The notes under the pieces are model-generated. The model was not told the origin of the DNA and ran no database searches. It worked only from the letters and a program-made list of their open reading frames with translations. Source: Campylobacterales bacterium (lineage in GTDB: Bacteria > Campylobacterota > Campylobacteria > Campylobacterales > JAOZPA01). Taken from it: 34,118 bases of DNA. The translations under genes were made by a program, and so were the position numbers. The stretch spans positions 1-34,118 of the forward strand of contig JAOZPA010000007.1 of the NCBI GenBank assembly GCA_029932985.1, written 5' to 3'. This document shows, in pieces, positions 3,293 to 8,884 of this stretch. The stretch's first letter is position 1, and each line of letters begins with the position of its first letter.

Positions 3293-3844
3293 ATGGGATT
3301 GATATATTTAATAAATAGTTCTAAGGATGATGAGGTTCTTTTTTCACACGATGGTGCAATTTCACAGGAGTTTATCACAGAAATTTCCTCCATTATCGAG
3401 GTGACACTAAATAAACACGATATTGAGATGAAAGATAAGGTGAAAATTATGAGAAATCTTTTTGGGGTGGCAGTGGAGCAACTTCAAAATATTATGAGTT
3501 ATTCAAAAGATAGTAGGCAAAAAAATAAATCTGCTAGGGAAAGTGATGGAATTTGTATGCTTGGATATTTTACAAATAAGGAAAAATATTTCATCAAAAC
3601 TTTAAATCATATTGAAACAGAGGATAAAGATAGATTGATAGAAAAAATAGATAAAATAAACTCTATGGATAAAATAGCTCAACGAAAATACTTAAGACAA
3701 CTTTTGCGAAGTGGAGAAAATACTCATTCAAGAGGTGCTGGACTTGGATTTTTGGAGATTGCCAAACGGTCAAGTGAAAAGATAAATTACGAGTTTAAAG
3801 ATACCCCAGATGGTCTCTATTTTGAGCTTACAATATCTGTATAA
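3293..3844 (+). CDS. siaB: SiaB-like GHKL protein kinase (partner-switch kinase)
   Basis: This 183-residue protein has a minimal histidine-kinase-like ATPase fold without a phospho-His domain. The N-box is EQLQN (E62-N66) and the glycine-rich lid is RGAGLGFLEIAKRSS (about residues 147-161); both are typical of SiaB-family (DUF6272) kinases. In Pseudomonas, SiaB phosphorylates the small protein SiaC on a Thr/Ser and so blocks its partner interaction, while phosphatase SiaA reverses this. Here the presumed phosphatase follows 102 nt downstream and the SiaC-like substrate is at 6642, so all three switch parts lie in 3.8 kb. AGGAG precedes ATG 3293. Family assignment rests on motifs, size and context; the substrate is inferred from those neighbours. 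Confidence 0.85.
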   Translation: MGLIYLINSSKDDEVLFSHDGAISQEFITEISSIIEVTLNKHDIEMKDKVKIMRNLFGVAVEQLQNIMSYSKDSRQKNKSARESDGICMLGYFTNKEKYFIKTLNHIETEDKDRLIEKIDKINSMDKIAQRKYLRQLLRSGENTHSRGAGLGFLEIAKRSSEKINYEFKDTPDGLYFELTISV

Positions 3845-3946: not shown

Positions 3947-6223
3947 GTGTTTAAAATTAAAGCGAAATATAAGAAATTTTCATATTTTATGACTTTGGTG
4001 ATTTTTGTCATCACATTAAGTATTATTGTGAGTTTTATTTTTTATAATAATAATGTACGGATTAAAAAAGAGATTTTTTTCATTCAACAACAGGGGCTTT
4101 TGGTGATTAAATCTCAGATGAATCTAATAAATGACAGACTTTCTATTATCAAAAATTATTCAAATAGTTTAGCTGATATGTCTAGTGATTTGGTGGAGTA
4201 CAATGAGAAGAGTATGGAGAAGATTTTGGAATCGCATTTTTTGAGAGAGATTGGGATTTTTCAGTTGAGGTTGCTTGATAGTAGTGGGATTGAGGTTATT
4301 CGGTATGATTTAAATAAAGATTCGCAGATAATTAAACGTGAGCATAATAAATTGCAAGATAAATCTGATAGATATTATTATATGGAGGCGGAAAATATCG
4401 CTTTTGATGAAATCTATTTTTCTAAGTTTGATTTAAATATGGAAAATGGGAAGATTGAGCTACCATATAAAAATACTACACGGGTGATTAAAAAGATTAA
4501 GATAGGGGTAGATATTTTTTATATTGTGATAAATTATAATATTACCGATATATTTAAAAATGTGCTTGATACAACACTTTATGACCTATTTTTAATTGAG
4601 GAGGATAAGCAGATAAATATACATTTAAATGATAAATTCTCTTTTTCAAAGCAGAAACATTTGGATATTTATTTGAATGATTTGCTAGATTATGACAATC
4701 AGTATATTACAGAAAAACCGTTAGAGGGGTTTGGATATAGGGTTGTGATAAATATTAAAAAGTCGATAATTGATTCTGCCCAACAATATAAAGAGGATGA
4801 GATTAAGAATTCGGTTATAATTGTAGCATTTATCTCATTGATTTTGTCTTTGATTATCTCATCAATTTTGGCTAGAGTTCTAACACAATTTAATAAAAAA
4901 GCAGTGAAGATAATAGAAACTGGCAAATATATTCATGGAGGTGAGTTTTATGAGTTTATGAATATTCTGAATAATTTGGAGATTCAATATAGCAAGATAG
5001 AGATTGCAAATAGAGAGTTGAAAAATTTGCTTCATTCATTTAGCCTACATGTCATCGCTAGTAAGATGGATTTAAAGGGAAAAATTACTTATGTAAGTGA
5101 TGCTTTTTGTGAAGTTTCTGGTTATCCTAGAGAGGAACTTATTGGTAAAATTCATAAAACAATGGTACATCCTGATATGCCTAAAGATTCTTTCAAAGAT
5201 TTGTGGGAAACCATAAAGACTGGTAAAAATTGGCAAGGTGATATTAAGAATATTACAAAAGATGGAAATTTTTATTGGGTAAATGCGATTATCTCTCCCT
5301 ATTATGATGAATATAATACTATTATAGGATTTAATACAATAAGACACAATATCACTGCTAGAAAAGAGGTTGAATATTTGAGTGAAAACCTTGAAAAAGA
5401 GGTGGCTCAAAGGACACAAGAGCTTCAAGAGGCAAACACACAAATTTCAAAATCACTTAATTTCGCATCCTTAATTCAAGAAACTTTTAATTATGATAAA
5501 GATATAATACAAAATGTTTTTGAGGATAGTTTTGTGGTTTTAAAGCAAAGAGATGCGGTAGGGGGCGATATAGTCTTGTTTGAGAGATTAACACCAGAAG
5601 ATGAGTATCTGGTTTTTATTATAGATTGTACCAGCCACGGAGTTCCAGGGGCTTTTGTGACGATGATTGTGAAGACTTTGCAAAGACAAATTGTCTATGA
5701 TATTATTAAGTATAATCAAACGATAAGTCCTGCTAAAATTTTGTCAATTTTCAATAAAGAGATAAAAGATTTACTGAATCAAAATAGAGAGGATTCGCTG
5801 TCAAATGTGGGTTTTGATGGGCAAATATTGTACTATAATAAAAATGATAATTTGATAAAATTTGCAAGTGCGAGAAATGATATTTTGATATATCAAGATG
5901 ATACTCTAAAGAGATTTAGAGGAGACCGACATTCTGTGGGCTACAAAGATAGTGATGAGAATTTTAAGTTTAAGGAACACACCATAGAGATAAAAGATGA
6001 GATGAGTATATATCTGTATAGTGATGGATATACCGACCAACTAAGTGATTCTCAAAGACCTATGCCTTATGGGACAAAAAAACTTATTAGAAAAATCCAG
6101 CAGATAAAAGATGAATCTATGGAAAGGCAAAGAGAGATTTTATTTGATGAGCTAGATATTCATCAAGGAGATTATGAGCAAAATGATGATATATCATTTG
6201 TTGGTTTAAAGATTAAAAAATGA
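3947..6223 (+). CDS. siaA: SiaA-like membrane sensor with PAS and PP2C/SpoIIE phosphatase domains
   Basis: This 758-residue protein starts at GTG 3947. It has a transmembrane helix at about residues 12-33, a periplasmic sensor region of about 250 residues, and a second helix at about 287-309. A PAS domain follows at about 365-475 (SDAFCEVSGYPREELIGK, then HPDMP and DLWETIKTG, resembling Aer-type PAS), then a coiled coil and a SpoIIE/PP2C phosphatase at about 506-757. Metal-binding acids are all present: VGGD (D541), DCTSHGVPGAF (D560), YSDGYTD (D693) and NDD (D747/D748). It should therefore be an active Ser/Thr phosphatase removing phosphate from the SiaC-like protein encoded at 6642. The PAS domain is an addition relative to my recollection of the Pseudomonas protein (sensor-HAMP-PP2C). 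The stop overlaps the next ATG (ATGA), implying translational coupling to the MNT gene. Confidence 0.85.
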   Translation: MFKIKAKYKKFSYFMTLVIFVITLSIIVSFIFYNNNVRIKKEIFFIQQQGLLVIKSQMNLINDRLSIIKNYSNSLADMSSDLVEYNEKSMEKILESHFLREIGIFQLRLLDSSGIEVIRYDLNKDSQIIKREHNKLQDKSDRYYYMEAENIAFDEIYFSKFDLNMENGKIELPYKNTTRVIKKIKIGVDIFYIVINYNITDIFKNVLDTTLYDLFLIEEDKQINIHLNDKFSFSKQKHLDIYLNDLLDYDNQYITEKPLEGFGYRVVINIKKSIIDSAQQYKEDEIKNSVIIVAFISLILSLIISSILARVLTQFNKKAVKIIETGKYIHGGEFYEFMNILNNLEIQYSKIEIANRELKNLLHSFSLHVIASKMDLKGKITYVSDAFCEVSGYPREELIGKIHKTMVHPDMPKDSFKDLWETIKTGKNWQGDIKNITKDGNFYWVNAIISPYYDEYNTIIGFNTIRHNITARKEVEYLSENLEKEVAQRTQELQEANTQISKSLNFASLIQETFNYDKDIIQNVFEDSFVVLKQRDAVGGDIVLFERLTPEDEYLVFIIDCTSHGVPGAFVTMIVKTLQRQIVYDIIKYNQTISPAKILSIFNKEIKDLLNQNREDSLSNVGFDGQILYYNKNDNLIKFASARNDILIYQDDTLKRFRGDRHSVGYKDSDENFKFKEHTIEIKDEMSIYLYSDGYTDQLSDSQRPMPYGTKKLIRKIQQIKDESMERQREILFDELDIHQGDYEQNDDISFVGLKIKK

Positions 6224-6573
6224 GGTATTTAAAAGATATAGATAAAGATAAAAAATCTCTTATCTCTATAAAATATGAAATATCTTCAAGATTAAAAGTT
6301 ATAAATCCATTAAAAATAATTTTATTTGGTAGTTATGTGTATGGCACACCATCAGATGAAAGCGACCTTGATATATGTATTATAAAAAATAATATAAAAT
6401 CAAGAATTAATGAAAAGAGAGAGATTAGAAAACTATTAAGTGGTATTAAAATTGCAAAAGATATACTACTTGTAGATAATAATTATTTCTTATCCCATAG
6501 TGATAAAAATTGGCTAAATACCGCACTTTATGATGCTAGGCACAAGGGGGAGATTTTATATGAAAAGAGATAA
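6220..6573 (+). CDS. MNT-type nucleotidyltransferase domain protein (orphan antitoxin-like)
   Basis: This 117-residue protein is a minimal nucleotidyltransferase. LFGSYVYGTPSDESDLDICI (residues 35-54) contains the GS (G37-S38) and the two catalytic acids D49 and D51 in the pattern GS-x10-DxD. In MntA-HepT toxin-antitoxin pairs such a protein adds AMP to a HEPN ribonuclease and neutralises it. Here the expected HEPN partner is missing: only a 26-codon frame follows, overlapping this gene. The gene overlaps the siaA-like stop by 4 nt and lies between the phosphatase and its presumed substrate, an unusual place for a toxin-antitoxin gene. It may be a relic of a lost module or an adopted regulatory enzyme. 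The family assignment is firm; the function is not. Confidence 0.82.
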   Translation: MRYLKDIDKDKKSLISIKYEISSRLKVINPLKIILFGSYVYGTPSDESDLDICIIKNNIKSRINEKREIRKLLSGIKIAKDILLVDNNYFLSHSDKNWLNTALYDARHKGEILYEKR

Positions 6574-6640
6574 AATAAGTGATGAATACTTAGATAAACT
6601 TATTATTTTTGTTACAAAACAATTAAAACAGGAGAGATAA
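6560..6640 (+). pseudogene. Tiny frame after MNT; possible remnant of a HEPN partner
   Basis: A 26-codon frame starts at ATG 6560, inside the end of the MNT gene, and stops at 6638-6640, 1 nt before the SiaC-like start. It reads MKRDKISDEYLDKLI and continues for 11 more residues. MNT and HEPN genes typically overlap in just this way, so it may be the beginning of a truncated HEPN gene. It is too short to show any HEPN motif (R-x4-6-H absent). Its last bases (GGAGAGATAA) also serve as the ribosome site of the next gene, so it may simply be a coupling peptide. Confidence 0.35.
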
Positions 6641-6641
6641 A

Positions 6642-7028
6642 ATGGAAAATTTACTGTATGCACAGACTCAACACACACCACAGATAGAGTTTAACGAAAA
6701 AGAGAAAACTATATCTATAACGGGAAATAGTTACCCTGAAGATTCGTTTAGTTTCTATCAGCCAATTATTCAATGGCTAAAGGAGTTTATGGGCAACTGC
6801 TCACAAAACGATACAGTCAAAGTCATTATTTTTATTGATTATATGAATTCAAGTAGCCTAAAGGTTTATTTTGAATTTTTTGATATACTCGAAGAGGGAA
6901 ATGATAAAGGTGTCAAGATAGATATTGATTGGTATTATCAAATAGATAATGATATAGCAGAGGAGACGGGAGAGGATTTTGCTTTGGATTTTGAGACACT
7001 AAATATTAAACTTATTAGTAGAAACTAG
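6642..7028 (+). CDS. siaC: SiaC-like DUF1987 protein, phospho-switch substrate
   Basis: This 128-residue protein matches the DUF1987/SiaC family in size and in its central signature FIDYMNSSSLKVYFEFFDIL (residues 64-83), with a helix packed behind a beta-strand as in STAS-like anti-sigma antagonists. In Pseudomonas SiaC the phospho-acceptor Thr lies at the matching place; here the run is N69-S70-S71-S72, so a Ser is the likely acceptor (inference). In that system unphosphorylated SiaC binds and activates the diguanylate cyclase SiaD. No SiaD is present here; instead an HD-GYP phosphodiesterase follows 93 nt downstream. The likely kinase (3293) and phosphatase (3947) are upstream. ATG 6642 is preceded by GGAGAG. 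Confidence 0.85.
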   Translation: MENLLYAQTQHTPQIEFNEKEKTISITGNSYPEDSFSFYQPIIQWLKEFMGNCSQNDTVKVIIFIDYMNSSSLKVYFEFFDILEEGNDKGVKIDIDWYYQIDNDIAEETGEDFALDFETLNIKLISRN

Positions 7029-7121: not shown

Positions 7122-7928
7122 ATGAGAAATATAGATAAGGACAATATTACACTTGAAGAACTTTATAGATTATATACAAAACAAAATAATAGATTGAATA
7201 TAATTATAAAAAGAAGTGATAAGCAAGAGTTAAAATTTAGAGAATTAAATCAAGAGTTAAATGAATATAAAAATAATCTTGAAGAAAAGGTTAAAATTGC
7301 CACAAAAGAGATAGTGGAGTTGAATCTGGAGATTGAGGAAACTCAACGGGAAGTTATTTTTACTATGGGGGCGATTGGTGAAAATCGAAGTAAAGAGACT
7401 GGAAATCATGTCAAAAGAGTAGCGGAGTATTCTAAGCTTTTAGCTTTGTTTTATGGATTAGATGAGGAGGAGGCGGAGCTTTTAAGAAAAGCAAGTCCAA
7501 TGCATGATATTGGCAAAATTGCTATTCCTGATGCTATTTTAAATAAAAAAGGGCAATTTACCGATGAAGAGTTTGAGCTGATGAAGGCACATTCTCAAAT
7601 TGGCTATGATATGATAAATCAGTCAAATAGACCATTGCTAAAAACGGCGGCGATTTTGGCTTTTCAGCACCATGAGAGATTTGATGGAGATGGTTATCCA
7701 CAGGGATTAAAGGGGGAAGAGATACATATTTATGGCAGGATTACTGCCCTTGCTGATGTTTTTGATGCTTTAGGTAGTGATAGATGTTATAAAAAAGCTT
7801 GGAATGATAATCGAATATTTGATTTTTTTAAGCAGGAAAAGGGTGGCTATTTTGACCCCAGATTAGTTGATATATTTTTTGAAAATTTAGATAAATTTTT
7901 GGAAATCAGAGATAATATGAGGGATTAA
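7122..7928 (+). CDS. HD-GYP domain c-di-GMP phosphodiesterase with N-terminal coiled coil
   Basis: This 268-residue soluble protein is predicted to hydrolyse cyclic di-GMP. Residues about 25-80 form a coiled coil and about 80-262 the HD-GYP domain. Metal ligands and signatures are intact: H96, HD at 128-129 in MHDIGKIAIPD, H157, HH at 183-184, the GYP motif FDGDGYPQGL (187-196) and D212 in LADVFDAL. It has no receiver domain, so it must be controlled through its coil or by a partner. The coil segment LNEYKNNLEEKVK closely resembles LDEYKNNLEQRVK in the kinase encoded next (7958), which suggests a shared assembly module or common origin. It follows the SiaC-like gene in the place where a cyclase might be expected. 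AGGGGAA precedes ATG 7122. Confidence 0.92.
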   Translation: MRNIDKDNITLEELYRLYTKQNNRLNIIIKRSDKQELKFRELNQELNEYKNNLEEKVKIATKEIVELNLEIEETQREVIFTMGAIGENRSKETGNHVKRVAEYSKLLALFYGLDEEEAELLRKASPMHDIGKIAIPDAILNKKGQFTDEEFELMKAHSQIGYDMINQSNRPLLKTAAILAFQHHERFDGDGYPQGLKGEEIHIYGRITALADVFDALGSDRCYKKAWNDNRIFDFFKQEKGGYFDPRLVDIFFENLDKFLEIRDNMRD

Positions 7929-7957: not shown

Positions 7958-8884
7958 ATGATAAAAAGAATAGAGGAAATTTTAAATGATGAAAGATTGG
8001 ATGAAGATTTAAAAATCAAAATGAAATTTCTGCGAAATTCTGCAATTAGACAAAAACAAAGAGTTAATATAATAGTAGAGTTAAGTGATAAGTATCAAAA
8101 TAGGTTAAAAAAAGCAAATGAAGAGCTTGATGAGTATAAAAATAATCTTGAACAGCGAGTCAAAGAGGAGATTCAAAAAAATAAAGAACAGCAACTTATG
8201 ATGTTTCAACAATCTAAACTAGCTCAAATGGGTGAAATGATAACTATGATAGCCCATCAATGGCGACAACCACTAAACAGTATTAGTGCCACAAGTATAT
8301 CTGTAATTATCAAGGCAAATTTCAATCAACTAGATAGTCAAAAAATCATAAACCAGATGGAGTATATATCTAACTGTACTTCTCATTTAAGTTCTACAAT
8401 TGATGATTTTAGAAATTTTTTCAAACAAAATAAAAATAAAGAGAAAATTAATTTTTGCAATCTCATAGAGGATGTTTTAAAAATTTCACAAACCTCTATA
8501 ACTCATCACAAAATAGAAATAATCAAAGATTTACACTGCAAAGAGAGCTTTCAAACTTATGAAAATGAGCTGAAACAGGTAATCTTAAATATTATCAAAA
8601 ATGCAGAAGATGCTCTTGTAGAGAATAAAATTAAAAATCCATTTATAAAACTCAGCACCTACAACGAAAAAAATAGTTATATTTTAGAGATAAGTGATAA
8701 TGGCGGTGGCATTCCCGTAGATATAATCGATAAAGTTTTTGACTCTCATTTTAGCACAAAACTAGAAAAAGATGGTACAGGTTTGGGACTTTATATGAGC
8801 AAAACTATCATAGAGGAGCATTGTAACGGTGAACTCACCGTAACTAATAATCCAGAGGGAGCAGTGTTTAAAATTACTTTGTAG
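7958..8884 (+). CDS. Soluble histidine kinase (no sensor domain)
   Basis: This 308-residue cytoplasmic kinase has an N-terminal coiled coil (about residues 35-85) followed directly by HisKA and HATPase domains. The phospho-accepting H100 lies in MIAHQWRQPLN. The N-box is NELKQVILNIIKNAEDAL (203-220), the G1 box SDNGGGIP (246-253) and the G2 box KDGTGLGLYMS (271-281). It lacks transmembrane segments and any PAS or receiver domain, so it probably depends on a partner for signal input; the HD-GYP protein 29 nt upstream has a near-matching coil. H-box DNA is nearly identical to that of the kinase at 17051, both reading MIAHQWRQPLN and ISATSISV. No cognate receiver is adjacent. AGGAG precedes ATG 7958. 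Confidence 0.9.
   Translation: MIKRIEEILNDERLDEDLKIKMKFLRNSAIRQKQRVNIIVELSDKYQNRLKKANEELDEYKNNLEQRVKEEIQKNKEQQLMMFQQSKLAQMGEMITMIAHQWRQPLNSISATSISVIIKANFNQLDSQKIINQMEYISNCTSHLSSTIDDFRNFFKQNKNKEKINFCNLIEDVLKISQTSITHHKIEIIKDLHCKESFQTYENELKQVILNIIKNAEDALVENKIKNPFIKLSTYNEKNSYILEISDNGGGIPVDIIDKVFDSHFSTKLEKDGTGLGLYMSKTIIEEHCNGELTVTNNPEGAVFKITL

Follow-up and report, generated by a model that had tools for sequence, protein, structure and literature searches.

An orphan MNT gene between siaA- and siaC-like genes in a Campylobacterales bacterium, probably left by decay of a Class II MNT-HEPN module

Background

In the relevant section of Yao et al. 2020 (PMC7641770), modules that pair a HEPN protein of family PF05168 with a minimal nucleotidyltransferase (MNT) of family PF01909 make up Class II, and the toxicity of Class II HEPN proteins is not assayed in that section. 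MntA-HepT (SO_3165/SO_3166), a type VII toxin-antitoxin system, represents Class I, in which the HEPN belongs to PF01934 or PF08780 and carries an RX4HXY motif. In Thermus thermophilus HB8 an MNT-HEPN module lies within the lysine operon (Makarova et al. 2009, PMC2701414), and orphan antitoxins are common in Klebsiella (PMC7192599); both the insertion of such modules into operons and the frequent occurrence of orphan antitoxins are already published.

Here we analyse a stretch of 34,118 nucleotides ("the window"; contig JAOZPA010000007.1 of assembly GCA_029932985.1) from a Campylobacterales bacterium, in which an MNT gene stands between siaA- and siaC-like genes. As in Class II, the MNT is the upstream gene and has the GSX10DXD motif, and in relatives a PF05168 HEPN follows with a short overlap; in the window, however, the HEPN appears to be cut to its two ends. 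A 26-codon frame stands there instead of an adjacent PF05168 HEPN, and we therefore file the locus as a remnant rather than a working module. With MntA-HepT it shares the MNT fold and GSX10DXD, but the partners in relatives are PF05168 proteins that lack RX4HXY, no PF01934 or PF08780 HEPN was found in the host's own genome, and the window lacks a toxin. Like the Thermus module, it is embedded in an operon of unrelated function, although the Thermus paper does not present its module as decayed, whereas the toxin core in the window seems to have been deleted. The surrounding genes resemble the SiaABC(D) switch of Pseudomonas aeruginosa (PMC7647112) in encoding a SpoIIE/PP2C phosphatase, a SiaB kinase and a SiaC phosphoprotein, but differ in their order (siaB-siaA-MNT-siaC), in a Ser within NSSS (residues 69-72), the P. 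aeruginosa counterpart being Thr68 within NTSS, and in an HD-GYP-type protein after siaC that takes the place of the P. aeruginosa diguanylate cyclase SiaD.

In all likelihood, a Class II MNT-HEPN module entered the operon between siaA and siaC, and the central part of its HEPN gene was lost afterwards; decay of this type is known, and the locus illustrates it clearly without being out of the ordinary. What seemed an odd orphan enzyme among signalling genes can be read as toxin-first decay, and the case warns that gene order alone is poor ground for giving the MNT a function in the Sia switch.

Results and discussion

An MNT gene within a Sia-like operon

Table 1. Features of the window around the MNT gene
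Feature	Position	Strand	Evidence and remarks
siaB-like kinase gene	3293..3844	+	PF19788; NF038262 above cut-off
siaA-like gene (sensor PP2C/SpoIIE phosphatase, PAS domain)	3947..6223	+	PF07228, PAS; NF038263 partial, below cut-off; upstream border of the insert
MNT gene, 117 aa, MntA-like antitoxin	6220..6573	+	PF18765/PF01909; NCBIfam MntA_antitoxin below cut-off
26-codon frame, putative HEPN remnant	6560..6640	+	same start offset as HEPN of relatives; tail in register with HEPN C-terminus
Likely siaC ribosome-binding site	6629..6635	+	AGGAGA 5' of ATG 6642 (direct reading); within final codons of the putative remnant
siaC-like phosphoprotein gene	6642..7028	+	PF09345, E 8.6e-36; downstream border of the insert
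HD-GYP-type protein gene	7122-7928		follows siaC-like gene
Histidine kinase gene	7958-8884		after HD-GYP-type gene

The genes of the region are listed in Table 1. The original prediction, made from the bare sequence, was right in its coordinates and in how it described the genes: the MNT start and the siaA stop share an ATGA, and the GSX10DXD residues are kept. The alignment shows G37 and S38, then ten residues, then D49-L-D51, together with a third Asp, D81, that is invariant in relatives. The 26-codon frame begins inside the end of the MNT gene (14-nt overlap) and stops 1 nt before the siaC ATG. No terminator was found between 2800 and 9000 in a scan of the window, and a promoter scan gave 45 hits where 36 were expected, little above chance.

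The predicted MNT structure has a mean pLDDT of 89, and its best PDB matches are MntA-type antitoxins (6m6u, 7bxo, 7ae9) and HI0073. Searching PDB sequences with the MNT and HEPN proteins gave nothing useful. The protein probably folds and binds nucleotide, and ATP may still be bound. A second, distant MNT-like gene lies elsewhere in the host genome (L002, G000:C41:10943-11251), likewise with no HEPN downstream.

HEPN partners in related loci

The nearest relatives of the MNT are about 53-71% identical to it, and they supported the earlier proposal that a toxin-antitoxin pair has decayed here, since some of them retain a full-length HEPN gene and others a broken one. The full-length genes, of 129-138 codons, overlap the MNT stop and start at the same offset from it as the 26-codon frame. 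Intact HEPN loci are L062 (a close relative, from a Campylobacterales metagenome-assembled genome), L125/L148 (G404), L126/L154 (G493), L006/L152 (G034), L007/L153 (G288), L011/L158 (G330, twice), L012/L159 (G070) and L013/L097 (G027). The two HEPN genes that were scanned fall in PF05168, and the HEPN proteins of relatives carry RX4[H/C/N]DD-type motifs. The His of the RX4-6H motif is kept in L062, L126, L011 and L013 and is replaced in L007, L125, L012 and L006 (three Cys, one Asn).

No HEPN of PF05168, PF01934 or PF08780 was detectable in the host's own genome (2.4 Mb, 210 contigs, 97.7% complete), and therefore a resident substrate of the MNT is not evident. One weak PF01934 match in that genome appears to be a TetR-type regulator. 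When the search was started from HEPN instead, every intact close-clade HEPN that it found came with its MNT; in G366 the HEPN is broken and an MNT match is lacking. The host is the single genome of its family, so that comparison within the family yielded nothing.

Repeated loss of HEPN

In a tree of 91 MNTs, the window MNT falls in a clade of 17, and at eight of these 17 loci (the window and seven others) the HEPN is broken or missing. The seven others show a deletion with frameshift (G361), no HEPN at all (G004), a fusion at a contig end (G224), an internal deletion that keeps the frame (G093; 88 codons, counted from the start of HEPN), a deletion with an early stop (G080), a short stub (G372) and a HEPN of 43 codons (G009); G093 and G080 belong to the same genus and have different lesions. 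HEPN lesions beside an open MNT in this clade were recorded at L003, L004, L008, L009, L010 and L014. Outside the clade, 20 of 72 MNTs had no intact downstream partner by the same automatic rule as inside the clade, which accepts a next frame of at least 112 codons and will miscall some distant cases. The excess in the clade (8/17 vs 20/72) is not significant (p = 0.15), and an inner subset with 7/12 broken gives p = 0.048, having been picked after the tree was seen. Thus, loss of the partner is common among MNT loci in general.

The MNT is open at all eight HEPN-broken clade loci, as might be expected if it persisted alone, as an antitoxin that counters HEPN toxins brought in by incoming elements. 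Such an anti-addiction role has been proposed for orphan antitoxins (PMC7192599), and related MNT-HEPN modules occur widely across the order. The loci were, however, found by MNT search, which favours those with surviving MNTs, loss of the toxin first is expected anyway, no resident HEPN was found, and one clade member has a frameshifted MNT; we consider this role unlikely. That member (L161, G392:C37, 2874-3221) lies upstream of a trpB-like gene, has no HEPN, and is a later stage of decay. MNT dN/dS in the clade is 0.1-0.3, i.e. purifying, a value that can neither date the deletion in the window nor prove selection after the loss, and that leaves room for some retained function. The window MNT, having no adjacent intact toxin, is an orphan antitoxin by definition, and most likely a partnerless antitoxin at the toxin-first stage of decay.

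Origin of the 26-codon frame

The original prediction described the frame as a possible HEPN stub whose end serves as the siaC ribosome site. Its length and the likely ribosome site held up, but rather than a HEPN N-terminus only, the frame seems to combine both HEPN ends, the C-terminal part fitting as well. Its peptide, MKRDKISDEYLDKLIIFVTKQLKQER, opens with MKRDKI, similar to the MKKNDI, MKRDDI and MKKDDI of relatives, and reads as the first ~6 HEPN codons joined in frame to the last ~13-19, with the junction somewhere in codons 6-14; compared with relatives, ~310-335 nt of the HEPN gene are missing, including the active-site region.

A frame so short and AT-rich could instead be a chance frame or a leader coupling siaC translation, the HEPN having been lost wholly or never present. 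The 26-residue peptide alone has no match in Pfam or NCBIfam, and its scores under some nulls are modest: the gapped score was reached by 336 of 5000 shuffles (7%), by 59 of 4887 peptides drawn at random from the window's other frames (~1%) and by 7 of 820 frame ends. Against this, the tail keeps the register of the HEPN C-terminus close to the stop, with an equally good fit in only 12 of 20000 shuffles; the eight N-terminal residues find a match in 1 of 150 frames; and L005 has a comparable fusion in which a C-terminal segment follows the same start (MKRDDI joined to ICDDINDASIYV, running to the contig end). The peptide on its own would be moderate evidence of HEPN likeness; since the frame also sits at the position that HEPN occupies in relatives, the case for a HEPN origin is strong, and a frame of other origin is improbable. 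Among close strains, none was found that carries a complete HEPN at the siaA-siaC site, and the ends of the proposed deletion are thus not directly visible.

Insertion followed by toxin decay would then have proceeded as follows. A mobile Class II module (PF05168 HEPN plus MNT) would have entered between siaA and siaC, its short overlaps keeping the operon translated. A later internal in-frame deletion would have taken the ~310-335 nt, leaving the two ends of HEPN, while the end of the remnant would still supply the siaC ribosome site. Translation would pass from siaA to MNT, remnant and siaC by overlap and close spacing; an in-frame deletion preserves this chain, as a third of random deletions would by chance. 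The MNT frame remains open while its substrate, the HEPN protein, is gone, and the MNT may have no present function.

The module in unrelated operons

Members of the clade occupy operons of quite different function. In L148 (G404:C127, 3020-3743) an intact MNT-HEPN pair fits exactly between the cmr2 and cmr3 genes in a type III-B CRISPR operon and overlaps each neighbour by 4 nt; in L151 the module follows cmr2 with a 1-nt overlap; in L153 it lies between genes for a B12-binding mutase subunit and a MutE-like protein, again with 4-nt overlaps; in L149 between UDP-GlcNAc 2-epimerase (wecB-like) and UDP-sugar dehydrogenase (wecC-like) genes; and in L150 between murJ-like and cysS-like genes, both named from reading the sequence. 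The type III-B CRISPR operon of L151 (G224:C82, 1120-3494) contains two MNT/HEPN-like pairs: the first stands between the cmr1-like gene and cmr2, and its second gene (152 aa) has no Pfam match; the other, with a broken HEPN, comes after cmr2. Because a single clade here combines intact pairs with several independent internal deletions, these relatives would suit a study of how MNT-HEPN modules get into operons and decay there.

The original prediction had offered, as its other option, that the nucleotidyltransferase was recruited to modify a switch protein; without its toxin, the MNT would adenylylate SiaC, SiaA or SiaB and so add an input to the switch. The MNT does lie inside the operon with an open frame, domestication of MNT-HEPN systems into regulatory enzymes has been proposed (PMC3710099), and because the catalytic residues are kept recruitment formally survives. 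A component of the Sia switch should be conserved beside siaC, yet the MNT was absent, within about 1.5 kb of siaC, from all 30 SiaC loci examined in other genomes. HEPN loss with an open MNT is also seen away from Sia genes, and members of the same clade are found in operons for CRISPR, sugar-nucleotide, mutase and other functions. The Sia setting therefore looks incidental, specific recruitment to it was rejected, and recruitment is very unlikely. That the MNT stayed after toxin loss because it adenylylates a Sia protein is more doubtful still; if true, the phospho-switch would gain a second, nucleotide-charged input, an antitoxin turning into a signalling enzyme. An empty siaA-siaC site was sought in relatives and not found, the order there being mostly siaA-siaB-siaC.

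Finally, it is highly improbable that strains with and without the deletion were misjoined and the real gene is full length, as the 210 contigs of the genome and the fragmentary state of several relatives might suggest, given that the frame is open and in register, that other independent HEPN lesions exist, and that the sole comparable deletion ends (G009 vs the similar G330 copy) share the 7 bases GCAGGAA, short for a k-mer misjoin.

Two further observations concern the Sia genes themselves. The host genome has a second SiaC/SiaB-like pair (L162, G000:C51), near htpG and with a histidine kinase alongside, which has no MNT. Genes 52-70% identical to the HD-GYP-type gene of the window come after siaC in L036, L039, L041, L045, L049, L052, L055 and L060.
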